Positions 433-22,925 of a stretch of 23,887 nucleotides of DNA are shown here, in pieces (position 1 is the first letter of the stretch; each line of letters starts with the position of its first letter). Location: the IMG/VR virus record IMGVR_UViG_3300017917_001331, positions 1-23,887 of that record. One strand, 5' to 3'. The stretch comes from a virus. The notes beneath the pieces were generated by a model. That model was not told the DNA's origin and searched no databases. It was given only the letters and a program-made list of their open reading frames with translations. The position numbers and the translations under genes are program-made.

Positions 433-1068
433 TTAAGGTTGTTTAAGACACCATTGTGTAAAATGAGCAATACCCATTTCCTTTCTGTCGTTTATTCTAC
501 ATACGACTTTAGGTTTGGGTATTCCTTTCTTTACTTCGCTTAGATGTTTCTTTAGTTCTGGTGACAGGGGCCCTAATACTCTACCCTTGTTTTTACCTAT
601 AAGCGAAGCCCTTCTTTTAGCACGAGTTTCTTCGGACTGATTGAGTCCAAATCCCTCAGGTTTGGGTTTGCCCTTGTTTACTCCTGTCATACGTTTGGAA
701 TGAGCATCACGCATCTCTTGCGTTCTAACTTTGCCTTTGTTACTGGCAGATAATTTAGCACAATACTCAGGGGTGCGAATAACACCAGATGCCCCATCTC
801 CGCCATCTGTTAGGTTTCTTAATATACCTGTGCCTATATCTTGTCTACCAAACCAAGCAATCATTCTGCGTTCAAGAGCAAACGCACCTAACTCAGTTAG
901 GTTTTGTTCTAATATAACAATTTTGGAACGATCTTTTGGTTTGGGTATGCGGTGATTGTTATCGTATGCTCTATTGCCCTTACCTTTGCCTATGTAGTAA
1001 GGTGTGCCTGCTTTGGCTGTAGTGGAATCTTTTGATCTGATGTATGCGTAGACGTAATAAATATTCAT
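433..1068 (-). CDS. GIY-YIG homing endonuclease with NUMOD3-type DNA-binding repeats
   Basis: This 211-residue protein begins with a GIY-YIG nuclease domain. VYAYI at residues 6-10 stands for the GIY motif and [12 protein letters not shown] at 24-35 for the YIG motif with its basic follow-on. Glu66 in [11 protein letters not shown] is the expected metal-binding glutamate, and NLTDGGDG lies at about 85-92. The second half carries several short GKNKG/NKGKP-like segments typical of NUMOD3 DNA-binding repeats in phage Seg-type homing enzymes. Such proteins nick or cleave DNA and promote their own spread during co-infection. The gene is free-standing, on the strand opposite its neighbours, with GAGG ten bases before the ATG. 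No intron or intein was seen around it. Its target site is unknown, and it may be cutting a related phage that lacks this insertion. Confidence 0.9.
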
Positions 1069-2196: not shown

Positions 2197-3807
2197 ATGA
2201 AGAGTGATATCCGCATAAACCAGGCCTACAAAGCCAAACCCATCAAAGACATCGCTAAAAAACTAGGCCTTAAAGACGCTATAGAACCCTATGGTAACTT
2301 TAAGGCCAAAGTTGATGTCAATCAAGTCAAGAAAAAATCTTGGGGTAAACTCATACTAGTCACAGCAGTAACACCAACTCCCGCAGGTGAAGGTAAGACC
2401 ACAACAACCATTGGCCTGGCAGATGGCTTACGCAAACTAAGGTATGACAGCATTGTCTGCCTACGTGAGCCTGCCTTGGGTCCGGTGTTTGGTATGAAGG
2501 GTGGCGCTACTGGGGGCGGGTATGCTCAGGTATATCCCATGGAAGATATTAACCTACACTTCACAGGTGACTTCCATGCCGTTGCCTCAGCACATAACCT
2601 GTTAGCCAGCCTAATAGACAACCACTTACACTGGGGTAATGCGCTGAATTTAGACACTAATCGCATTACATGGCGTAGGGCCAGCGACATGAACGATCGT
2701 GCGCTACGCGACGTTTGTGTAGGTCTAGGAGCCCATAACAGCGTCACACGTCAAACAGGTTACGACATTGTTGTAGCGTCAGAAGTAATGGCTTGCTTAT
2801 GTTTAGCGGACGGGTTTCAGGACTTAAAACGTAGATTGGGCAACATTACCATTGGTTATACACTGGACGATAAGCCCGTTATAGCACGAGACCTTAAGGC
2901 TGAAGGTAGTATGGCAGCCTTGTTAAAAGATGCTGTAAAACCCAACCTTGTGCAGACCTTAGAGGGTACTCCTGCGCTGATACACGGCGGCCCGTTTGCT
3001 AACATAGCGCATGGTTGTAACAGTGTAATAGCCACTAAATTAGGCTTACGTTTGGCCGAATATGTGGTTACAGAAGCAGGGTTTGGTGCTGATTTAGGTG
3101 CCGAAAAGTTCATTAACATCAAGTGCCGCAAAAGCGGATTAAAGCCTGATGCTGTAGTGCTTGTAGCAACTGTTAGGGCAGTTAAACACTGGGGTAACTA
3201 CGATAACTTGGACAAACACATAGCCAATATTAAAACGCACTATAACCTACCTTGTGTAGTTGCTGTGAACCGTTTTAATGATGACACTGACGCAGATGTA
3301 CAGGCATTAATTGAGCATGTTAGAACTACGTTTAACATTGAAGCAGTGGAAAGCACACACTACAAAGACGGTGGTGCAGGTGCTATAGATCTAGCACATG
3401 AAGTTATCATGGCCATTGATGAGTCAGAAAAGACTATGGCATTGACCTATAAAGATGAAGACTCACTGTGGGATAAACTCAACACAGTGGCACGTAACAT
3501 CTACGGTGCTAGTGGTGTTAGCATGGATGCTAAAGTTAGTAAGCACTTAGATTATTTACAGCAATACTACGGCAATTATCCTATTTGTGTAGCCAAAACA
3601 CAGAGCAGTTTCAGTGATGATCCCTCTAACAAAGATGCGGCCACACAATGGCACACACTTACTGTACGTGAATTGAGATTGTGCTCGGGCGCCGAGTTCA
3701 TAGTGGCTATATGCGGTAACATTATGACCTTACCAGGCCTGCCAGAACGGCCCAACGCTGAACGTATTGATATCAATTCTAAGGGTGAGATTACGGGCTT
3801 AGATTAA
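2197..3807 (+). CDS. fhs: Formate-tetrahydrofolate ligase (10-formyl-THF synthetase)
   Basis: The 536-residue product is a nearly full-length member of the Fhs family (usually about 550-560 residues). The family joins formate to tetrahydrofolate using ATP to give 10-formyl-THF, which feeds purine, formyl-methionine and, after reduction, thymidylate synthesis. The P-loop [11 protein letters not shown] is at about residues 61-71, followed by the family blocks [44 protein letters not shown] and [15 protein letters not shown]. It ends with the typical [15 protein letters not shown] region and a GEITGL tail. No frameshift or missing core motif is seen, so it is probably active and cytosolic. It is the last gene of the unit starting at promoter 1276 and is closed by the terminator at 3869. 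Base composition matches most neighbouring phage genes, suggesting long residence. A phage-borne fhs is unusual. Confidence 0.95.
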
Positions 3808-3824
3808 ATATTTTTTGTAGTACT

Positions 3825-3862
3825 CCATTGCACTTTCTATTGTCTAGCTCCTTGTGCAATGG
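3825..3862 (+). other. Inverted repeat / RNA hairpin after fhs
   Basis: CCATTGCAC (3825-3833) and GTGCAATGG (3854-3862) form a perfect nine-base-pair stem around a 20-base loop. The loop contains CTCCTT, which resembles the anti-Shine-Dalgarno end of 16S rRNA. There is no U-tract behind it, so it is not a terminator by itself. It lies just upstream of the true terminator and may protect the 3' end of the fhs transcript. Confidence 0.6.
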
Positions 3863-3868
3863 CCTTAT

Positions 3869-3903
3869 AGCCCAAGTGTAGCGATACATTTGGGCTCTTT
3901 TTT
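3869..3903 (+). terminator. Intrinsic (rho-independent) terminator of the fhs operon
   Basis: AGCCCAAGTGTA and TACATTTGGGCT pair over 12 positions with one G-T wobble. They close a GCGA tetraloop of the stable GNRA type, followed by C and six T residues. It sits 62 bases after the fhs stop and four bases before the -35 box of the next promoter, cleanly separating the two transcription units. Confidence 0.92.
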
Positions 3904-3906
3904 CTC

Positions 3907-3935
3907 TTGACCTTCAGGATTAAATACCATATACT
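3907..3935 (+). promoter_or_regulatory. sigma70-type promoter, predicted leaderless, for the replication operon
   Basis: TTGACC at 3907-3912 and TATACT at 3930-3935 are separated by 17 bases. Only six bases lie between the -10 box and the ATG at 3942, so transcription would be expected to start at or next to the A of the start codon. There is no room for a Shine-Dalgarno on such an mRNA. Confidence 0.75.
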
Positions 3936-3941
3936 AATTAT

Positions 3942-5069
3942 ATGTTAACATTTTCTCACGTCGAAGACTACATTGAAATATTAGCAGGCTATGAACCTGG
4001 CGGCACCAGTGTGCTATTCAATACTAACAAATACACATTCAGTTTGGCTCGCTACGATGTTAAAATAGTCGAAAGCATGGCTAATAGTACCGTGTGGGGT
4101 AGCATGGCCTTAACTGACAAGCAAGGCGAACTGGCACTTAAATTAGTTGAAAAGTATCGCAGACAGTATGCTAAACACGGCATCGACATCACACCTGCGA
4201 TAGAAAATCCCCAATGGCGTATGCCCCTACGAAAGGTTGATCGTACACAGCGCATTTGGTTAGAAGACAGTGAGATTAGAGTTAAGTTTCCCTACAACCA
4301 AAATTGGATTGATGACATACGCAGTTTCAAAGAAGTCAGCCAAGGGCACGCTGAGTGGCGTAATGAGGGCAAGTATTGGAGCCTGGGTCTAACTGAATAT
4401 AACGTTAACTGGGCTGTAGCCTGGGGAGAAACATGGAACATAGACATTGACCCGGAAGTTAGAGACCTGTACAATAAAATATTGTTGGCAGAAACCGAGC
4501 CCTATGAAATTAAGTTAGTACAGCGCGACAACTGTTTTGAAATAGTCAATGCCGCGGAGAGTTTGGTTAATTACGTAGAAGAGAAATTGGGCGGGTTTGG
4601 CCTAGACAATGTCACCCGGTTAGTTGACTCAGCAGGTGTGTTAGGCTACGCTATTGACCGCGGCATCGAGTATGATGAACTATTAGACTTGTTCGGACCA
4701 GATAGACTCATACATGTGCCTTCAACTGAATCAGGTAGTTTAGACCTGATATTTGACTATGCTAAACTAACAGATCGTTGGCCAGTGTACATATACAATC
4801 CAGGTACAAATCAAAAGATCGACCTTGATAGATTTAACGAAAATGAAATTGTAAAGTTTGACCCTGCGGGCAAGACCAAAACACCTGACTACAACTTTTG
4901 GACTACCAAGGTAATCTATGTTAATAAGATACCTAAGGTTTGGGAGTGGCCAATACCATTGTTAGTCAGCACAGTAGAAATGATGTATGGTGGTGCCCGC
5001 ATGGAATGGATGACACGTGCAGAAAAAGTCATACACTATAGTTACGTTCCGTTGAGAGACAATACATGA
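3942..5069 (+). CDS. HARP-like helicase-associated protein, 375 aa (tentative)
   Basis: No enzyme motifs are visible. A segment at about residues 105-160, beginning IRVKFPYNQNWIDDIRSFKE and continuing to a W-rich EGKYWSLGL stretch, resembles the HARP/SMARCAL1-type domain found beside phage helicase cores. That domain helps recognise branched or single-stranded DNA. The preceding LTDKQGELALKLVEKYRRQ region (about 58-76) is a helical element seen in front of such domains in phage proteins. It is the first gene of a ten-gene unit that also contains uvsW, which fits a role in replication or recombination. The ATG at 3942 lies immediately after a -10 box. The next gene overlaps its stop as ATGA. 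The assignment rests on motif resemblance only. Confidence 0.6.
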   Translation: MLTFSHVEDYIEILAGYEPGGTSVLFNTNKYTFSLARYDVKIVESMANSTVWGSMALTDKQGELALKLVEKYRRQYAKHGIDITPAIENPQWRMPLRKVDRTQRIWLEDSEIRVKFPYNQNWIDDIRSFKEVSQGHAEWRNEGKYWSLGLTEYNVNWAVAWGETWNIDIDPEVRDLYNKILLAETEPYEIKLVQRDNCFEIVNAAESLVNYVEEKLGGFGLDNVTRLVDSAGVLGYAIDRGIEYDELLDLFGPDRLIHVPSTESGSLDLIFDYAKLTDRWPVYIYNPGTNQKIDLDRFNENEIVKFDPAGKTKTPDYNFWTTKVIYVNKIPKVWEWPIPLLVSTVEMMYGGARMEWMTRAEKVIHYSYVPLRDNT

Positions 5070-7048
5070 TAAAAAGTTTTTGTCACTTATGTCTAGCTGA
5101 ATGCGGAATCAACATTGAAACACAAAACAACAAATTCATAAAAATTTTACCTGATCGTAGTGATCCTGTAAGTCAAGGATACTTATGTGAGAAATCTCAA
5201 AAACTAATAAATTTTCAACATTCACAAGATAAAATTTTATTTCCAAAAAAAAGAGTTGACGGAAAATATATCGATATATCTTGGAATCAAGCACTTGAAG
5301 AAATTACACAAAGATTAAAAGCCAAAAAAAGTAAAATTCTTTACATGGCTCCACTCAGTCCCAGTTATAACTTTCACACATGCTATAGTTACACACTTGC
5401 TCGTATGTTAGGGGCTGATTATGTTACTAATGTATTTTCGTTTGAGAAATCGCATTTTTTAATATCTCGCAGTCAATCGTTTAACTGCACGCTGTACCCA
5501 GAAAGAGATAAATCAGACACACTGTTGATAGTTGGTCAAAATCCTTGGGTAACTCAACATTATCCACGAGCCAGGACCAGACTCAAACGATTTCAAAAAG
5601 ATAAAAATAAAAAAATGATAGTAATTGACCCCTGCGTAACTGAAACAGCAGAATTAGCAGACCTACACATTAAATTAAAACCAGGTACTGATCTATGGTT
5701 ATTGTTAGGAGTTTTAAAACTTTTATTACCGTGTAAAAATAATAACTATAAGAATATAGATATTTTAGAAAAAAAATTACAATCAGTTAATTTAAATAAT
5801 TGCGCCAACATAACAGGGGTAGATGAAAAAACATTTTATCAATTGGCCTCAATTATTAAAAATTCAAAATCTTTAGCTGTAGAATCAGGTAACGGAGTTT
5901 GTCATATCCCGCATTCGTTGGGTGTAAACTATCTATTAGATTTAATTATTCTATTTTCAAACTCCATTGGTAAAGGAATGATACCAGTTAAAGAATATCT
6001 AACCAATGGGCACATGCAATGGTTTGATTTACAAAAAACACCTATAACAGATCAAAAGTTAGTTTATGGTACCATGGCAGGACCAACTGTTGCGGACAAT
6101 CTAAGTTATTTTGACTGCGTAATAATAGACAATAACAATCCTGTGACTAGATTGCCTAACAGTAAAAAGTTTAAAGAAAAGTTAGCATCTGTTGATCTGG
6201 TCATAGCTTTGGATAGTTTTAATTCAGAATCAACTAAGTGTGCCGAATATATCTTACCAACTAGTACTTTTTTTGAACGCACTGAATGTGTCGGCGCGAT
6301 TAATCCTATAGAAAAAACTTTACAAATAAGTCGTCCGGTTTTGGAGCCCGCTGTAGATTCAAATGATATTTTAGAAGACCTTGCTAAAAGATTAAATCTT
6401 ATACCTGACGTAGACAATTACTTTACTTTATATCATAAGGATCGTACAGAATTTATAAATCTTATAGAAAATTTATACGTGGCTAAAAATCCTATACTAT
6501 ACTATGTTATAAAATACACCTTAGGTAAAGAATTTAGCCATTACTTGCTGGCCTTTGTTTGGTTTGAAATTTATGTATCCAAACGATACTCTATAGATGA
6601 GGTTGATAAAATGATTCGTAACTTAGATGACAATAATGTTTTACACTATGATAATACAAATACTATTGACCTTGACAACATAGATGTCACACCTAAAATG
6701 TTGTTTGCTAGTCTGTCAGTCAGAGAACACGAATACGAATTTATTTTACAATGCGGATACAGAACTAAAGAATCTTTGAATAATGTTATACCTTGTTTAG
6801 AAGATCAAAAATTAGAAATTTATCAGACTGATGCTGACAAACACAACATAAAAGAAAATGATATAATTACTGTATCAAATGGGTTGAATTCAATTGAATT
6901 ATCATGTACAATAATTAATACATCTCAACCAGGACTATTGAGAATAAAAAATTCACAAAATATTAATTTTTTAACCAACGATAAATTAAGTGATTATTTT
7001 GGTTCTCAATATAAATTTGTTCCAGTAACCATTAGGAAACGAGTATAA
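5066..7048 (+). CDS. Molybdopterin (MopB-superfamily) oxidoreductase-like protein, 660 aa
   Basis: The N-terminus has a complete 4Fe-4S motif, C6-x2-C9-x3-C13-x27-C41, with Lys43 where the family has its electron-relay lysine. WNQALEEI (73-80), TLLIVGQNPWVTQHYPRAR (about 152-170), a VIDPCVTETAELADLHIKLKPGTD block and EYILPTSTFFERTE are hallmarks of molybdopterin guanine dinucleotide-binding domains. A C-terminal beta-barrel-like domain (about 550-655) matches the molydop-binding fold. Length and order resemble formate dehydrogenase-like enzymes. No Cys or Sec is present at the usual metal-ligand site; SFEKSH (125-130) lies there, so substrate and activity are uncertain. No signal peptide is seen. 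The gene overlaps the upstream stop by four bases and abuts uvsW with no gap. It is clearly richer in A+T than its neighbours, suggesting later acquisition. Confidence 0.88.
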   Translation: MIKSFCHLCLAECGINIETQNNKFIKILPDRSDPVSQGYLCEKSQKLINFQHSQDKILFPKKRVDGKYIDISWNQALEEITQRLKAKKSKILYMAPLSPSYNFHTCYSYTLARMLGADYVTNVFSFEKSHFLISRSQSFNCTLYPERDKSDTLLIVGQNPWVTQHYPRARTRLKRFQKDKNKKMIVIDPCVTETAELADLHIKLKPGTDLWLLLGVLKLLLPCKNNNYKNIDILEKKLQSVNLNNCANITGVDEKTFYQLASIIKNSKSLAVESGNGVCHIPHSLGVNYLLDLIILFSNSIGKGMIPVKEYLTNGHMQWFDLQKTPITDQKLVYGTMAGPTVADNLSYFDCVIIDNNNPVTRLPNSKKFKEKLASVDLVIALDSFNSESTKCAEYILPTSTFFERTECVGAINPIEKTLQISRPVLEPAVDSNDILEDLAKRLNLIPDVDNYFTLYHKDRTEFINLIENLYVAKNPILYYVIKYTLGKEFSHYLLAFVWFEIYVSKRYSIDEVDKMIRNLDDNNVLHYDNTNTIDLDNIDVTPKMLFASLSVREHEYEFILQCGYRTKESLNNVIPCLEDQKLEIYQTDADKHNIKENDIITVSNGLNSIELSCTIINTSQPGLLRIKNSQNINFLTNDKLSDYFGSQYKFVPVTIRKRV

Positions 7049-8506
7049 ATGGCTGTAGCCAGATTATTAATTAAAGACGAAGTTAATGTAAAGATAGAAG
7101 GCCTGGATTTACATGAACGCAAAGAACTTAGTAATAAGTTTAAATACGAAATACCCGGCGCACGTTACTTGCCTGCTGTTCGCTTGGGCAGATGGGATGG
7201 CAAGGTTGGATTCTTTCAACTGGGCGGCAGTACCTACATTAACTTACTTCCAGAAATACTTCCTTACTTAGACAGCCGTGGATATGATATTGACCTACAG
7301 GATGTGCGTGAATATCGCACACAGTATGAGTTTGACCAAGTAACTGAAGAGACATTCAGTCACAAAGTTTGGCCAGAGAAACATCCAATGGCAGGCGAGC
7401 CTGTGGTCTTACGTGACTATCAAATTGAAATCATCAACAAGTTCTTAGAGAATCCACAGTGTATACAAGAAGTAGCTACAGGCGCTGGTAAGACACTTAT
7501 GACCGCGGCACTTAGTTATAGCTGTGAACCACATGGACGCACTATTGTTATTGTGCCAAACAAAAGTCTAGTAACACAAACAGAAGCAGACTATATCAAC
7601 TTAGGCTTAGATGTAGGTGTGTACTTTGGTGACCGTAAAGAATTTGGACATCAGCATACTATCTGCACATGGCAGAGTCTTAATATCTTACTTAAGAATA
7701 CCAAAGGTGGCGCAGCAGACATTACTATTATGGAGTTCTTAGAAGATGTTGTCTGTGTTATGGTTGACGAAGTACACATGGCCAAAGCCGACGCACTTAA
7801 AACACTACTAACAGGGGTAATGGCGCACGTACCTATACGTTGGGGGTTGACAGGAACTATACCTAAAGAAGCCTATGAGCAGGTCAGCCTACTATGTTCA
7901 TTAGGTCCTGTGGTAGGTAAACTCAGTGCCAGCGAACTCCAAGAGCAAGGTGTCTTGGCTAACTGCCATGTAAATATCTTACAACTTGTAGATCATGTGG
8001 AATACCGAGACTATCAATCAGAGCTACGCTATCTATTAGAAACAGACGCACGCTTAGACTATATTGCACAGTTGGTAGAGTCAATTAGATCATCTGGTAA
8101 TACTCTTATCTTGGTAGATCGTATAGCGCCAGGTCGAGCCTTGGTGGAAAAGATTCGTGACGCAGTATTTGTTTCGGGAGGAACCAAAGCAGATGAACGC
8201 AAAGAAACCTATGACGATGTGGCAACAAGTGAAGACAAAGTTATTGTCGCCACGTACGGTGTTGCCGCTGTTGGCATTAACATCCCTCGTATTTTTAATT
8301 TGGTTCTGGTGGAACCTGGCAAAAGTTTTGTCAGAGTTATTCAAAGCATAGGCCGCGGTATCCGCAAGGCTGAAGACAAAGATTTTGTTCAAATATGGGA
8401 CATAACCAGTACCTGCAAGTTCGCCAAACGGCACCTTACAACACGTAAGAAGTTTTATACGGAAGCAAACTATCCGTACCAAGTAGAAAAAGTGGAGTGG
8501 CAATAA
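7049..8506 (+). CDS. uvsW: UvsW-type superfamily 2 DNA helicase
   Basis: The 485 residues match the size of T4 UvsW (about 500), an ATP-driven enzyme that remodels stalled forks, branched recombination intermediates and R-loops. An N-terminal substrate-recognition domain includes RLGRWDGKVGFF (about 46-57). The helicase core then follows: LRDYQ (Q-motif region), Walker A ATGAGKT (about 143-149), DEVH (motif II), LTGTI (motif III), a VATYGVAAVGINIP segment and QSIGRGIRK (motif VI). All motifs are intact. AGGA lies 11 bases before the ATG, which directly follows the TAA of the molybdopterin gene. The next gene begins right after its stop. It is a core replication/recombination gene of this operon. 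Confidence 0.93.
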   Translation: MAVARLLIKDEVNVKIEGLDLHERKELSNKFKYEIPGARYLPAVRLGRWDGKVGFFQLGGSTYINLLPEILPYLDSRGYDIDLQDVREYRTQYEFDQVTEETFSHKVWPEKHPMAGEPVVLRDYQIEIINKFLENPQCIQEVATGAGKTLMTAALSYSCEPHGRTIVIVPNKSLVTQTEADYINLGLDVGVYFGDRKEFGHQHTICTWQSLNILLKNTKGGAADITIMEFLEDVVCVMVDEVHMAKADALKTLLTGVMAHVPIRWGLTGTIPKEAYEQVSLLCSLGPVVGKLSASELQEQGVLANCHVNILQLVDHVEYRDYQSELRYLLETDARLDYIAQLVESIRSSGNTLILVDRIAPGRALVEKIRDAVFVSGGTKADERKETYDDVATSEDKVIVATYGVAAVGINIPRIFNLVLVEPGKSFVRVIQSIGRGIRKAEDKDFVQIWDITSTCKFAKRHLTTRKKFYTEANYPYQVEKVEWQ

Positions 8507-10687: not shown

Positions 10688-10857
10688 CAGACCGAGTACT
10701 AGGAGAGCTTGTACAATTACGCAGTGATGTGTTATACTTAGTACGTGTAATTGAAAAGTTAGAAAAGAAAATCACACAACTTGAAAGCACAGTTAATCAA
10801 CAACGAACACAGCAACAGCAGGATCCTTTGCTAGGAAAAATAATTGAAAAACTTTAA
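10684..10857 (+). CDS. Short coiled-coil protein, 57 aa
   Basis: The frame starts at ATG 10684, overlapping the upstream stop as ATGA, and runs 57 codons to TAA. Nearly the whole product is predicted coiled coil, with Leu/Val/Ile at heptad positions through LYLVRVIEKLEKKITQLE. A glutamine-rich stretch (QQRTQQQQ) and a short C-terminal helix follow. It probably oligomerises or docks to a partner. It contains the Shine-Dalgarno of the next gene and overlaps it by 14 bases. Confidence 0.65.
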   Translation: MTDRVLGELVQLRSDVLYLVRVIEKLEKKITQLESTVNQQRTQQQQDPLLGKIIEKL

Positions 10858-11434
10858 CAGTGATATTGACATAGACTTTGCTGATCGTGATCAGGTGTTG
10901 ACATTATTAGATGTTACGCCTAGCAGTATTATTCGCGATGGCAAGTTAGTCAAACATAACACAGGTGTACATCCGACTGAAATACCTGTGGATCCGTTTA
11001 CAGGTTGGGCTAGTCTAGACTACATTGATGCAGAAGATCGAGGTTATATCAAACTAGACTTTCTAAATGTCAACGTTTACAAACAAGTGCGTAATGAAGC
11101 ACACTTAGTTGAACTGATGCGTGAGCCTGACTGGGCTCGACTATATGATCCAGCCGTATGTCAGCAGTTAATTCACGTGAACAATCATTATGACACACTG
11201 TTAAAAATGCCAGAGCCTGTGGATACTATTCCTAGACTGGCTATGTTCTTAGCAGTTATCCGTCCAGGTAAACGTCACCTAATAGGTCGTACTTGGAAAG
11301 ACGTAGCGGCTACTGTTTGGGATCGGGTTGAGGGCGAATATAGTTTTAAGAAAGCACATGCGATTGCTTATGCCCAATTGGTTGTGGTAAATCTTAACCT
11401 ACTCTGCGAACCAAGGTTATCGAACGACGCTTAG
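10844..11434 (+). CDS. Miniature DnaE-like (DNA polymerase III alpha palm) protein, 196 aa
   Basis: The start is TTG at 10844, with AGGA at 10833-10836 seven bases upstream. SDIDIDFADRDQVL (residues 6-19) matches the DnaE block carrying the two catalytic palm aspartates (here Asp9 and Asp11). IKLDFLNV (69-76) matches the block with the third (here Asp72). HNTGVHP (38-44) and FKKAHAIAYA (about 175-184) correspond to DnaE HAxGV and FNKSHSAAYA blocks. All three aspartates are kept in a protein about one sixth the size of DnaE, with no room for full fingers, PHP or clamp-binding parts. Whether it polymerises DNA is unknown; it may have been recruited for regulation or structure. It closes the replication operon, and its last 41 bases overlap a converging gene. 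Confidence 0.8.
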   Translation: MKNFNSDIDIDFADRDQVLTLLDVTPSSIIRDGKLVKHNTGVHPTEIPVDPFTGWASLDYIDAEDRGYIKLDFLNVNVYKQVRNEAHLVELMREPDWARLYDPAVCQQLIHVNNHYDTLLKMPEPVDTIPRLAMFLAVIRPGKRHLIGRTWKDVAATVWDRVEGEYSFKKAHAIAYAQLVVVNLNLLCEPRLSNDA

Positions 11435-18035: not shown

Positions 18036-21000
18036 ATGATTTTATCTAATGTAAACATAGGCACAGGTCCTTCAGCAGGTGATGGTGATCCGTTACGCAC
18101 GGCATTTAATACAATAAACGAAAACTTTGAACGTATTGAAAGCAACGTTAACGCATTGACTAACAGCGTAAGTTCAGTAGCTGGACGCACAGGCAACATA
18201 GTTTTAACCACACAAGACATCATAGGCATTAATAACTATGCCACAGTCTCTTATGTAAACAGTCAATTGGCCAATGCTGGTGCCGCTAACATATCAAGTT
18301 TACAATCTAATGTAGCTGCTCTACAAGCAGACGTTAATACCCTGTATGGTAATGCTGGTGTACAAAGTGCTACATTAGCTACACTCACAGCCAATGCCGC
18401 CCTACAGGCAGGCAGTTTAGCAACACTAACCAGTAATGCTGCCAGTCAAGCTGGTGAACTTACAACCTTGCTATCTAATGCGGCTGTACAAGCAGGCGAA
18501 ATCGCAAGCCTACTGAGCAACGCTGGTAGCCAACACGAAGCTATCAGTAGCCTACAGAGTAATGCCGCAGTACAAGCTGGACTAATTGCAGCCCTACAGG
18601 CCAACGTGGGTGTCAGTAACTATGGTAACAGTAATGTTGCGGTATACTTAACTACCTACGCTGGTAATGTCAGAGCAGGTAACATTATATTTGATGACCT
18701 ATCAGTACAGACCACAGCCTATACTGGTACACAGTGGCGCAGTAATTTAGAGTCAAATGTTCGTGTAAAACCCAGCTGGTTAAGTTATGTACCAGGCGGT
18801 AAAAATCAAGAAGGTACACAGTATGGTTTTGACACGGGCGGCATGTTCTTTAGAGGCAACAGTGATGGCGATTTTGCTTACCCTATACAGACTAATCTAC
18901 ACTTCCACGAGCAAGATGTATTAGAAGTTATAGCTACTATTTACTTTGGTGCTACTAATAACGACCACGGCCTGTGTATATTCCCAGCCGACGGTCGCCC
19001 CATTTGGCAGTCAAGCGCAAATACCACACGTATAGCATTCCAATACACAGCAGGTATTCCTGTACTGTACGGTCAGACCACTGCTAACACAGCACCAGGT
19101 AGTCCTGTACTGAGCACAGGCAACTACTATACAATCAAATTTAAATACGACCCAGGTAACACTGTGGTTGTAGAAACATTCAGCGGTAACACTGCCACAG
19201 GCAGCCCAGTTGACACAAGAAGTTTAGCTGAAGTCTTACCCGCAGGCGACTACCGTTTAGGTTTTGATGCCGACAACGATGCCTCAGGAGTCAAGAGCTA
19301 TTGGACTAACTTGATAGTTAGAACCTTAACCAACACAGTGGTCAATGACTTAGAAGTACAGGGTCAGGTAATTGGTAACCTTATACCACAGAGCAACGTC
19401 TCACAAAGTTTAGGTAACATCACACACCAATGGAAAGATCTGTGGGTCAGCAACAACACTATCTATATTAACAGTGTACCATTAAGCATTGATGCTGGTG
19501 GAAACTTATTAATAAACGGCGCCCCAGTAAGTGGTGGTGCTGGCAGCACTGCTGATATTACCTTTGCTAATACTTCTATATCTGCAGCAGATGACAGCGA
19601 AATTACTGTAGATGCTAAGACTGCTGAAAGAATCAGAGCAAAATTAAGATTAGAACCTACCAGTGGTGATGCTTACTTAGAAGCGTGGAGTGGCCAAAAC
19701 ACTAGATCAGAAAATGATACAAATTGGACCACTGGTGTTTGGGAAAACAACATCTATGGTAATCCGTTGATGACATTTACTGGGGCATTTGATCTAGCAT
19801 TTTTTGTTGTTAACACCCTACAAAGCAGTGCAGACCCAGACACAGTATCATACAGCATCAATGGTGGCCCTTACATTGCCTGGGACGGTGGCTCAAGTGC
19901 TGATACAACAACAGGCTACGTGCAAATTAACACATCGGGCGTAAGTCCTAATGTTAGTCCAACTGCTATCACTAGCTTAGACTGGCGATATGCGTATAAG
20001 AGCAGTATGGGAATCAGCCATGGCAACGGTAGCATTCAAATAACTGGCAGAAACCAATATCTGCAGGTAGACATTGATCAGTATATCCTAGTAAACAGTA
20101 AAGGATCTATTGAATTCAACAACAGTAATTACAGCAATAATGTAGATATTGAACTCAGATCCGGTGACGATATTTTACTACAGGCCAAAGACAAAACCAC
20201 TTCAGACAGCGAAGGTGGCGACATCAACATCTATGCTGGTGATGGTGGAGATGCTGATGCTGGTGATAGTGCTGGTGGCGGTGGCGACATCACAATCAGA
20301 GCAGGTGATGGTGGAGCCCCGAGTGCTGCTTACAACGGCGGTCTTGGTGGAACTTTAGAATTATACGGCGGTTTTGGTAGCGATGCTAATCCTGGCTTTA
20401 ATAGATCTGCAAGAAATGGTGGTATAGCAAGATTAGTTGCTGGTAGCGCAGGCGGAAATAGCGGCAACATAGCACTTGGTGCTGTGGGCGGCCCAGTAGA
20501 AATCACAGCAGGCCAAACAACACTACAAAATAGCAATGGCGGCATAGTAACAATTACCAGTGGCCAGGGCGGTGCCAATGCTTTAGCAGGAAATGTAGAA
20601 ATTAATACACCAAGCAGTGACCTAGGATCAGGAGGTACTTGGACTTTTGATGGAAAAGGTCAATTAACCTTGCCTGGCAACGTTATCAGCGGTAACGGTC
20701 AAGTAAACTTTGTGGCTAACAGTTCAGGTGATGGCAATGGTTACTCTACTATAGAACTACGTCCAGATGTCAATCAAGCTGGTACCGATCAATATCTAAT
20801 CGTTGACCCTACAGCACCTGGACACATACATATTCGTGCTGGTGGTGAACAGGATAACAGCAGCGCAGATTTAATCTTTGGTGGTGAAAATAGCCACGTA
20901 AGAATACCAGCCGGAGCCAACACAGCACCTTACATTAAATCTAACGGATATGAATGGCAGTTTGGTACTGATGGCATATTAACTTTAGCCGCAGGCGGCT

Positions 21001-22925
21001 CTATCTACGCACCGGTTAATGATCCTATTGATATTCGTGTGCGAGACTCGGGTAATGTCGGCTACGCTATTGAACAATCAGTTCGTGATGGCACAGGTAC
21101 ATTACAAACACTGACATCATTAGATCGTCAAGAATTTAAAATCTATACAGATTTCCAGGGTACTAACAATATATGGACATTTGCTAAATCCGGACAATTT
21201 AGTTTAGCTGGTAACTTACGCTTCCCAGACAGCACAGTACAAACCACAGCATGGACTGGCACGGTGGCATATGGTAATACCATAGCTATAGGTTACAGCG
21301 CAGGACTTTCATCCCAAGGCAATGAAGCCGTGGCTATTGGTCGCTTGGCTGGTAATGTGAATCAAGGCGGGGTATCCGTAGCCATCGGTCGTGCCGCAGG
21401 TAGAGACAATCAAGGCATAGAAGCTGTGAGCTTGGGGGTTGACGCAGGACAACAAAATCAAGGTGATTATGGTATTGCTATTGGTTCGGTTACAGCTTAC
21501 CTAAATCAGGGAGCAGGTGCGGTGGCCATTGGTACCAGTGCTGGTGCGGTGAACCAAGGTACTCATGCTATTGCAATTGGTACCGGTGCCGGTAACGGTA
21601 ATCAAGGTAACAGCAGTATCATCCTAAATGCCACAGGTAGTCCACTTGATCAATCCACAGACAATACATTTACAGTTAAACCAATTCGCGGCGCATCAGC
21701 TGGTAACATACTGTACTACGACCCAAGTTCAGGCGAAATTACCTACAGCACATTAAGTGTTACCTATGGTAACACGATTGCTTTAGGATACAGCGCAGGA
21801 GTAGACCAAGGTGAATTTTCAGTTGCTATAGGCAGCGGAGCGGGCAATGATACACAAGGTAACTTGGCCATAGCAGTAGGTAAAGATGCTGGCTTACAAC
21901 TACAAGGTGATTATGCTATAGGTATAGGTAACGAAGCAGGATGGATAAGCCAATCTACAGAAGCAGTAGCAGTTGGTGTGAGTGCTGGTCGTGATAGTCA
22001 AGGTATAAGTTCAGTGGCTGTAGGTGCCTACGCCGGTTCAGATACGCAGGGCAGTTATTCAGTGGCGATAGGTCCAGGCGCTGGCTCAAGCAATCAACCA
22101 GCTAACAGTATTATTATTAATGCCAGTGTTGATTCACTAAATGCTAGTACCACCGGATTATTTGTAAATCCAATTAGAAATACCACAGGTAATGTAGGTG
22201 TATTACAATACAATAACGTGACTAAGGAAGTTAGTTACAGTTCTAACGTAACACTTGGTAATGTCACTGCTGGTAACGTGAGAGCTAACAATAACGTACA
22301 CTTTGGCACAGGTAATGCAAGAATTACCTCTGATGACAACACCAGTATTTTACTAACCCCAGACACGGCAGCCAATGGCTTGGCAGGTGTAAAAATTGGT
22401 GGCAATGGTTACCTATTAGCATCAAACGGCGCACGAAATATTACCTTAAACTATGGTAGTGTGAATGGCGCAGTTGGTCTACAGGCTAACGTAACAGTTG
22501 GTACATCCGCTTCGAGTATATTAACAGTAAATGGTAATGTCACAGCCAACAATATATCAACTATTGGCAGCATTTTATCCACCGGAGCCAGTGGCAAGAT
22601 TGGTTACAGTGCGGGCGGCTATGTAGTACAAAGTGGCAACACCAGCGGTGTTACTCTAAATACTGTTTCTGGTAACATTCAATTAGACACAGTAAACATA
22701 GCTGTAAACACCTCACATACTGTAGCGTTGACTAACAATAAACTTGATGCCAGCGACATTATATTAGTCCAAGGACAAGATAGTTCTGCTTTAGATCTAC
22801 ACATTGGTGCTTACTATTTGACCACTAATACTGCTATAATTTATCTACGTAATATATCTGGTAGTAGCATAGGTCCGATAGCACCTATGCTGAAATTCAT
22901 TATTGTTAAAGCCCCTGGTAGTTAA
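18036..22925 (+). CDS. Giant tail fibre with YadA-head-like blocks, 1629 aa
   Basis: The N-terminus (GDPLRTAFNTINENFERIES, about 23-42) is a common virion-anchoring head of long phage fibres. Residues about 85-190 are 14-residue NAAxQAG coiled-coil repeats like those of the 1312-aa fibre. Beta-rich middle domains follow, with QTTA(Y/W)TGT motifs near 230 and 1068, and a glycine/aspartate-rich stretch (GGDGGDADAGDSAGGGG-like, about 724-795). Two blocks (about 1078-1195 and 1242-1357) have AIGxxAG units every 15-17 residues, as in YadA/Hep-Hag adhesin heads; each ends in a VKPIRG or VNPIRN linker. The end is a beta-rich domain without a recognised chaperone. It is probably a trimeric fibre for host contact, the second of two in the cluster. 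Confidence 0.85.
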   Translation: MILSNVNIGTGPSAGDGDPLRTAFNTINENFERIESNVNALTNSVSSVAGRTGNIVLTTQDIIGINNYATVSYVNSQLANAGAANISSLQSNVAALQADVNTLYGNAGVQSATLATLTANAALQAGSLATLTSNAASQAGELTTLLSNAAVQAGEIASLLSNAGSQHEAISSLQSNAAVQAGLIAALQANVGVSNYGNSNVAVYLTTYAGNVRAGNIIFDDLSVQTTAYTGTQWRSNLESNVRVKPSWLSYVPGGKNQEGTQYGFDTGGMFFRGNSDGDFAYPIQTNLHFHEQDVLEVIATIYFGATNNDHGLCIFPADGRPIWQSSANTTRIAFQYTAGIPVLYGQTTANTAPGSPVLSTGNYYTIKFKYDPGNTVVVETFSGNTATGSPVDTRSLAEVLPAGDYRLGFDADNDASGVKSYWTNLIVRTLTNTVVNDLEVQGQVIGNLIPQSNVSQSLGNITHQWKDLWVSNNTIYINSVPLSIDAGGNLLINGAPVSGGAGSTADITFANTSISAADDSEITVDAKTAERIRAKLRLEPTSGDAYLEAWSGQNTRSENDTNWTTGVWENNIYGNPLMTFTGAFDLAFFVVNTLQSSADPDTVSYSINGGPYIAWDGGSSADTTTGYVQINTSGVSPNVSPTAITSLDWRYAYKSSMGISHGNGSIQITGRNQYLQVDIDQYILVNSKGSIEFNNSNYSNNVDIELRSGDDILLQAKDKTTSDSEGGDINIYAGDGGDADAGDSAGGGGDITIRAGDGGAPSAAYNGGLGGTLELYGGFGSDANPGFNRSARNGGIARLVAGSAGGNSGNIALGAVGGPVEITAGQTTLQNSNGGIVTITSGQGGANALAGNVEINTPSSDLGSGGTWTFDGKGQLTLPGNVISGNGQVNFVANSSGDGNGYSTIELRPDVNQAGTDQYLIVDPTAPGHIHIRAGGEQDNSSADLIFGGENSHVRIPAGANTAPYIKSNGYEWQFGTDGILTLAAGGSIYAPVNDPIDIRVRDSGNVGYAIEQSVRDGTGTLQTLTSLDRQEFKIYTDFQGTNNIWTFAKSGQFSLAGNLRFPDSTVQTTAWTGTVAYGNTIAIGYSAGLSSQGNEAVAIGRLAGNVNQGGVSVAIGRAAGRDNQGIEAVSLGVDAGQQNQGDYGIAIGSVTAYLNQGAGAVAIGTSAGAVNQGTHAIAIGTGAGNGNQGNSSIILNATGSPLDQSTDNTFTVKPIRGASAGNILYYDPSSGEITYSTLSVTYGNTIALGYSAGVDQGEFSVAIGSGAGNDTQGNLAIAVGKDAGLQLQGDYAIGIGNEAGWISQSTEAVAVGVSAGRDSQGISSVAVGAYAGSDTQGSYSVAIGPGAGSSNQPANSIIINASVDSLNASTTGLFVNPIRNTTGNVGVLQYNNVTKEVSYSSNVTLGNVTAGNVRANNNVHFGTGNARITSDDNTSILLTPDTAANGLAGVKIGGNGYLLASNGARNITLNYGSVNGAVGLQANVTVGTSASSILTVNGNVTANNISTIGSILSTGASGKIGYSAGGYVVQSGNTSGVTLNTVSGNIQLDTVNIAVNTSHTVALTNNKLDASDIILVQGQDSSALDLHIGAYYLTTNTAIIYLRNISGSSIGPIAPMLKFIIVKAPGS
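18295..18605 (+). repeat. 42-base tandem repeats (14-residue units) in the second fibre
   Basis: About seven units encode NAAxQAG-type repeats close in sequence to those at 12487-13005 and 13388-13625 in the other fibre gene. The two genes therefore share shaft modules. Confidence 0.85.
21271..21753 (+). repeat. YadA-head-like repeat block A with linker
   Basis: This block encodes seven AIG/SLG-type turns (AIGYSAG, AIGRLAG, AIGRAAG and so on) separated by NQG motifs, then NSSIILNATG and TFTVKPIRG linkers. The same arrangement recurs in block B at 21763. Confidence 0.8.
21763..22240 (+). repeat. YadA-head-like repeat block B with linker
   Basis: A second copy of the block A architecture: six ALG/AIG/AVG-type turns, NSIIINAS, then LFVNPIRN and a NVTKEVSYS strand (compare SSGEITYS in block A). 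Divergence between copies indicates an old duplication. Confidence 0.8.

Follow-up and report, generated by a model that had tools for sequence, protein, structure and literature searches.

A MopB-family gene with glutamate at the metal-ligand position, carried by large phages at a cargo site beside uvsW

Phage-borne genes of the MopB (DMSO reductase) superfamily are already on record. Published lists of auxiliary genes include, as single items, a formate dehydrogenase of a deep-water pelagimyophage (PMC7029224) and a molybdopterin oxidoreductase of Microcystis viruses (PMC12542629), and one phage protein family, PHROG 7800, is named DmsA. A 2023 survey of the superfamily gives the ligand of the metal as Sec/Cys, Ser, Asp or none, a list from which Glu is absent, and describes the independent loss of the cofactor in three lineages (PMC10100899). 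Here, we analysed IMG/VR virus record IMGVR_UViG_3300017917_001331, a stretch of 23,887 nt (23.9 kb, hereafter the window) from a large phage. A first-pass annotation had noticed in it a molybdopterin oxidoreductase-like gene, which we call mopB, embedded among replication genes (Table 1).

The reading frame of mopB is open over 660 codons, where chance alone would give some 52 stops at its own base composition. Its start shares four nucleotides (ATGA) with the stop of the upstream gene (gene 3942), and its stop TAA is followed directly by the ATG of uvsW, exactly as the first-pass annotation had described. The annotation had also reported a sharp change in composition, and its counts are exact: 12 and 15 G+C of 60 at 5701-5760 and 6901-6960, against 25 of 60 at both 4441-4500 and 7201-7260. 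The G+C content of the whole gene is 0.307 (31%), versus 0.427 for uvsW and 0.428 for gene 3942 (about 43% on both flanks), and GC3 is 0.22 versus 0.37-0.44 for the flanking genes. Low G+C recurs in the two homologues of mopB elsewhere that were measured (0.31-0.33 versus about 0.40). Hence, this composition is a property of this gene family and not a mark of recent arrival. The label “HARP-like” given to gene 3942 could not be upheld, as this gene had no match in Pfam, PHROGs or NCBIfam.

Table 1. Positions of the features of the window and the evidence for each.
Feature	Position	Strand	Evidence
Homing-endonuclease-like ORF	433-1068	-	phrog_314, phrog_15526
Formate-tetrahydrofolate ligase, complete, 536 aa	2197..3807	+	PF01268 3.9e-231; NF010030 776 bits, cut-off 652
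Gene 3942, left flank, 375 aa, no known family	3942..5069	+	Immediately precedes uvsW in 51 relatives without mopB
mopB, MopB-family oxidoreductase gene, Glu-type, 660 aa	5066..7048	+	PF00384, PF04879, PDB sequence matches, 12 phage homologue contigs, tree
[4Fe-4S] motif, Cys6, Cys9, Cys13, Cys41, with Lys43 two residues on (residues 6-43)	5081..5194	+	Conserved columns (rows of FDH, Nap, Asp-type, Glu-type and phage)
Glu127 codon, alignment column of the Mo/W ligand	5444..5446	+	Alignment column; invariant in 8/8 full-length phage proteins
Presumed cofactor-binding blocks GQNPW (157-161), IDP (187-189), KPGTD (205-209)	5534..5692	+	Conserved columns, all phage rows
C-terminal presumed MGD-binding domain (residues 578-660)	6797..7045	+	PF01568 Molydop_binding, weak and below cut-off (1.4e-4, 22.3 versus 26.8 bits); model of phage homologue L112 aligned up to residue 675 of 679
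uvsW-type helicase, right flank	7049..8506	+	phrog_16 9.8e-78; Pfam ResIII/DEAD
Short separate ORF, PHROG DNA polymerase piece	10844-11434		phrog_11778, 8.5e-60
Two very long repeat-rich ORFs, 1312 and 1629 aa	12303-16241, 18036-22925		LTANAGAQAG-like repeats

The gene encodes a genuine member of the MopB superfamily. The profile search that the first-pass annotation had suggested gave strong matches over the cut-offs for the catalytic domain (PF00384 Molybdopterin, 2.2e-25, 89.9 bits, cut-off 24) and for the cluster-binding region (PF04879 Molybdop_Fe4S4, 7.9e-11, 42.2 bits, cut-off 22.7), and the match to PHROG 7800 was distant (123 bits). The structure model of the window protein was weak (pLDDT 67, with less than 50 in the ligand loop), and that of the phage homologue L112 was better (pLDDT 74.9, pTM 0.69). 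The latter model aligned best with acetylene hydratase (2e7z, Z 28.2, 585 residues, rmsd 5.1, 19% identity). Other MopB entries, formate dehydrogenases and Nap, scored nearly as well (e.g., FdhH, 1aa6, Z 24.6). The alignment of this predicted structure is evidence on fold, not on function.

The 4Fe-4S motif is complete, as the first-pass annotation had read it, and its four cysteines are invariant across all aligned full-length rows. The column of the metal ligand differs between types: it holds Sec/Cys in the formate dehydrogenase (FDH) and Nap types, Asp in a second type (Asp-type), and Glu in each of the eight full-length phage proteins (the window, L111-L116 and L174) and in eight of eight proteins of their cellular sister group (Glu-type). 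The phage rows all retain 29 of the 45 columns that are conserved across the cellular rows, including the four cysteines, Lys43, GxNP, DP, PGxD, NP and LP, and they have altered several glycines and other cell-conserved columns (140, 299, 598, 608). From its place in the alignment, Glu127 may be a ligand of the metal, and the retained motifs point to a Mo/W cofactor. Rv0197 of Mycobacterium tuberculosis may be another Glu-type member; our literature search returned no function for it.

The tree that the annotation had called for, a maximum-likelihood tree of 44 MopB proteins, places the phage rows in one clade (100/100), joined as sister to the small Glu-type cellular group (100/99) and not nested in it. 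The larger Asp-type group is the next clade out (100/99), and the Cys/Sec types lie outside it (100/99 branch). This result held when the tree was rerun without the last third of the protein and with the seven residues around the ligand deleted: phage and Glu-type cellular proteins grouped at 100/97, and the Cys/Sec rows were separated by 99/99. The stem branch of the phage clade is long, with 1.57 changes per column.

Glu-type cellular proteins were found in Bradyrhizobium and other Pseudomonadota, Tsukamurella, Streptomyces, a Moraxella plasmid and a Bacillota genome. Their genes neighbour TetR, SDR, enoyl-CoA hydratase, thiolase, AMP-binding, P450 or dioxygenase genes, with no small subunit annotated beside them. 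The profile of the phage proteins had as best cellular matches “molybdopterin-dependent oxidoreductases”, not formate dehydrogenases. We found no close cellular relative of the window protein among Pseudomonadota, Bacillota, Campylobacterota and plasmids, and a second genome scan returned distant MopB only. Since these were the cells sampled, other groups may contain a closer one.

When viral and genome collections were scanned with single proteins, they gave no matches, probably because the chosen peptides are not conserved, but scans with alignments succeeded. We identified homologues in 12 other IMG/VR contigs (L008, L111-L120, L174), which show 30-42% identity. Four further matches in a phage collection (24-26%, two of them annotated fdhF) look like bacterial DNA and were set aside. 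The homologues adjoin uvsW directly on its upstream side or lie one gene off. In L111-L114, mopB stands between gene 3942 and uvsW, so that the arrangement of the window, for which the first-pass annotation had advised a search in related phages, is reproduced in independent assemblies. In L115-L120 and L008, a gene resembling 2OG-type Asp/Asn hydroxylases (PF05118) lies between mopB and uvsW. In L174, from a more distant phage, mopB comes immediately before uvsW and no homologue of gene 3942 was detected.

The nearest relative of the window, L082 (97% in UvsW, 95% in the formate-tetrahydrofolate ligase), has a clean empty site where gene 3942 runs straight into uvsW. Where both flanks could be read, the site is empty in 51 loci and occupied by mopB in six distinct contigs; in four others the gap is longer, and at least two of these (L084 and L085) contain a different long ORF in place of mopB. 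This makes the junction between gene 3942 and uvsW a cargo site. To explain its distribution, the UvsW tree requires at least five gains or losses of mopB. In close pairs, dN/dS is 0.08-0.24, hence mopB is under purifying selection. It is an accessory gene of phages, intermittently carried at a cargo site beside uvsW. The claim of a phage-borne gene co-oriented with replication genes is borne out by the profile matches, the homologous contigs, the empty site and the selection. With 12 further contigs, a fixed site and purifying selection, mopB is a cellular-type gene stably kept by phages, as expected of an auxiliary metabolic gene. A metabolic role and co-expression with the replication genes, both part of the reading in the first-pass annotation, are inferences.

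Several other features of these phages may be mentioned. Among named phages, Sinorhizobium phage Phosso and Agrobacterium phage Atu_ph07 have the UvsW proteins closest to that of the window, and IMG/VR relatives are on contigs of up to 260 kb. Genes for tRNA gave no clue to the host (one tRNA-Met in one relative). The two repeat-rich ORFs look like fibre or structural proteins, and the short polymerase ORF suggests a split DNA polymerase. The ORFs that replace mopB lie at about 10853-12722 in L084 and about 6037-7314 in L085; one of them resembles, by eye, a B12-binding radical SAM protein. The Asp/Asn beta-hydroxylase-like gene (280-285 aa; 1373-2215 in L008) overlaps or abuts mopB and occurs in one sub-lineage only. 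In relatives only, the gene run also has, farther downstream, an inserted radical SAM protein (PF04055; 4867-6363 in L008, 12587-14083 in L116). The 114-kb contig L112 has a fatty acid desaturase gene (PF00487) upstream (3412-4158). A candidate MobA on the 114-kb phage contig, a nucleotidyltransferase match of 349 aa, was rejected, as by eye it looks more like a sugar-phosphate nucleotidyltransferase with a HAD-like C-terminus.

On balance, we think it fairly probable that mopB is a functional cargo gene encoding a soluble, single-subunit Mo/W-bisPGD oxidoreductase, from a Glu-type clade of MopB in which we found no characterised member. The phage would make the apoprotein from the gene run 3942-mopB-uvsW. 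The host machinery would build the [4Fe-4S] cluster at Cys6, Cys9, Cys13 and Cys41, and Mo- or W-bisPGD of the host would be loaded into the apoprotein. Glu127 would contact the metal, where other families have Cys, Sec, Ser or Asp. The cluster would then relay two electrons between the metal and a carrier of the host, as the enzyme oxidises, reduces or hydroxylates a small metabolite. The protein begins two residues ahead of the cluster-binding region and thus has no signal sequence, and no partner gene or subunit is consistently co-encoded across the loci. On the simplest reading, the enzyme is soluble and takes its cofactor, cluster and carriers from the host. Points against this proposal are the poorly predicted ligand loop of the window protein, the long phage stem branch with its altered columns, and the failure to find an FdhD-type sulfurase or a plant-type ferredoxin on the phage fragments examined, although these are incomplete. 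The gene context of the cellular relatives allows a weak guess that the reaction is the hydroxylation or dehydrogenation of an organic compound. More tentatively, and with rather less than even confidence, we suggest that the phage clade and its cellular sister might form a class of Mo/W enzymes with a Glu-coordinated metal and an undescribed cytoplasmic reaction, which phages repeatedly gained or lost as cargo.

The phage protein could instead have dispensed with the Mo/W cofactor or with catalysis and play a redox or structural role, like NuoG/Nqo3, FhcB or ActB. The long stem branch and the altered conserved glycines are in line with this, and the three independent losses in the superfamily (PMC10100899) set a precedent; with this branch and these changed columns, altered or lost catalysis is possible. 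However, the presumed cofactor-binding blocks GxNPW, DP, PGTD, NP and LP, the cluster cysteines, Lys43 and Glu127 are invariant in phage proteins that share only 36-44% identity with that of the window, and a partner subunit is not consistently co-encoded. We therefore regard a protein without cofactor or catalysis as unlikely.

As another alternative, the protein could be a formate dehydrogenase and serve, together with the phage formate-tetrahydrofolate ligase, the one-carbon metabolism behind nucleotide synthesis. The best NCBIfam name of the protein is Fdh-alpha (TIGR01591, 7e-49), a complete ligase gene sits 1.3 kb upstream of mopB in the window, and the pelagimyophage list (PMC7029224) has a formate dehydrogenase among its items. 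Yet the score, 166.5 bits, is far below the curated cut-off of 666.25, and the FDH-type rows fall outside the grouping of phage and Glu-type proteins. The phage protein is probably not a formate dehydrogenase, because Glu replaces the Cys, Sec, Ser or Asp of other such enzymes. The ligase is common in this group of phages, and more than 20 IMG/VR contigs keep it upstream of gene 3942, but it is separable from mopB: most of the loci that carry it, more than 20 of them, lack mopB, and in L112, L115 and L116 mopB occurs with no ligase next to it. A functional pairing of the two genes is thus unsupported, since they are not consistently linked, and we consider this alternative very improbable. The ligase itself had no PHROG match, and a homologue (44%) occurs in Prevotella Lak phages.

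We give even less credence to the idea that mopB is a selectively neutral gene recently acquired from a host. The patchy presence, low G+C and accessory site would fit it, but the homologues form a phage-only clade with low identity within it, the dN/dS values are low, and the sampled groups of cells contained no close relative. An assembly chimera, or a bacterial gene misjoined to phage sequence, could explain the sharp step in G+C at both junctions and the absence of mopB from the closest relative, but it can be practically dismissed: separately assembled contigs hold mopB at the matching site, the homologues are low in G+C too and all fall in the phage-only clade, and the overlaps of gene ends are preserved at the junctions.

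If the gene works, these phages rely on their hosts for an enzyme cofactor that ranks among the most elaborate known. A gene family that is under selection and repeatedly gained or lost suggests that some metabolic step is worth controlling in the course of infection. The family also brings to notice a branch of cellular MopB proteins with Glu at the metal site, and its small, partner-free protein would be a test case for the ligation of Mo or W by glutamate in the MopB superfamily.

The phage proteins share with the Glu-type cellular proteins (e.g., WP_248890028.1 and WP_068739596.1) the Glu in the ligand column, the 4Fe-4S motif and, in most cellular members, the GxNPW block. They are shorter (654-708 aa versus about 770-830 aa), are 24-29% identical to them, form a clade of their own and are sited beside uvsW. 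The Asp-type cytoplasmic proteins of Pseudomonadota (SxDQLPHH), among which our comparisons identified no characterised member, have a similar overall build, but they have Asp rather than Glu and an NPxxSNG block in place of NPW. Formate dehydrogenase alpha subunits (FdhH, FdhA, TIGR01591) have the same fold, [4Fe-4S] cluster and presumed MGD motifs, but differ in their Sec/Cys ligand and separate clade. Acetylene hydratase (2e7z) has Cys where the phage proteins have Glu; it is a non-redox MopB enzyme, hence MopB enzymes are not all oxidoreductases. The pelagimyophage and Microcystis-virus genes, compared here by their listed descriptions only, and PHROG 7800 are phage-borne MopB as well. In the full-text literature searched, mostly outside subscription journals and without preprints, we found no description of the Glu-type phage clade, of its site beside uvsW or of a Glu ligand. 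The proposal of a new kind of auxiliary metabolic gene must therefore be narrowed: phage MopB genes as such were already on record, and what is unusual here is the clade, which has Glu in the ligand column and occupies a fixed cargo site beside uvsW.
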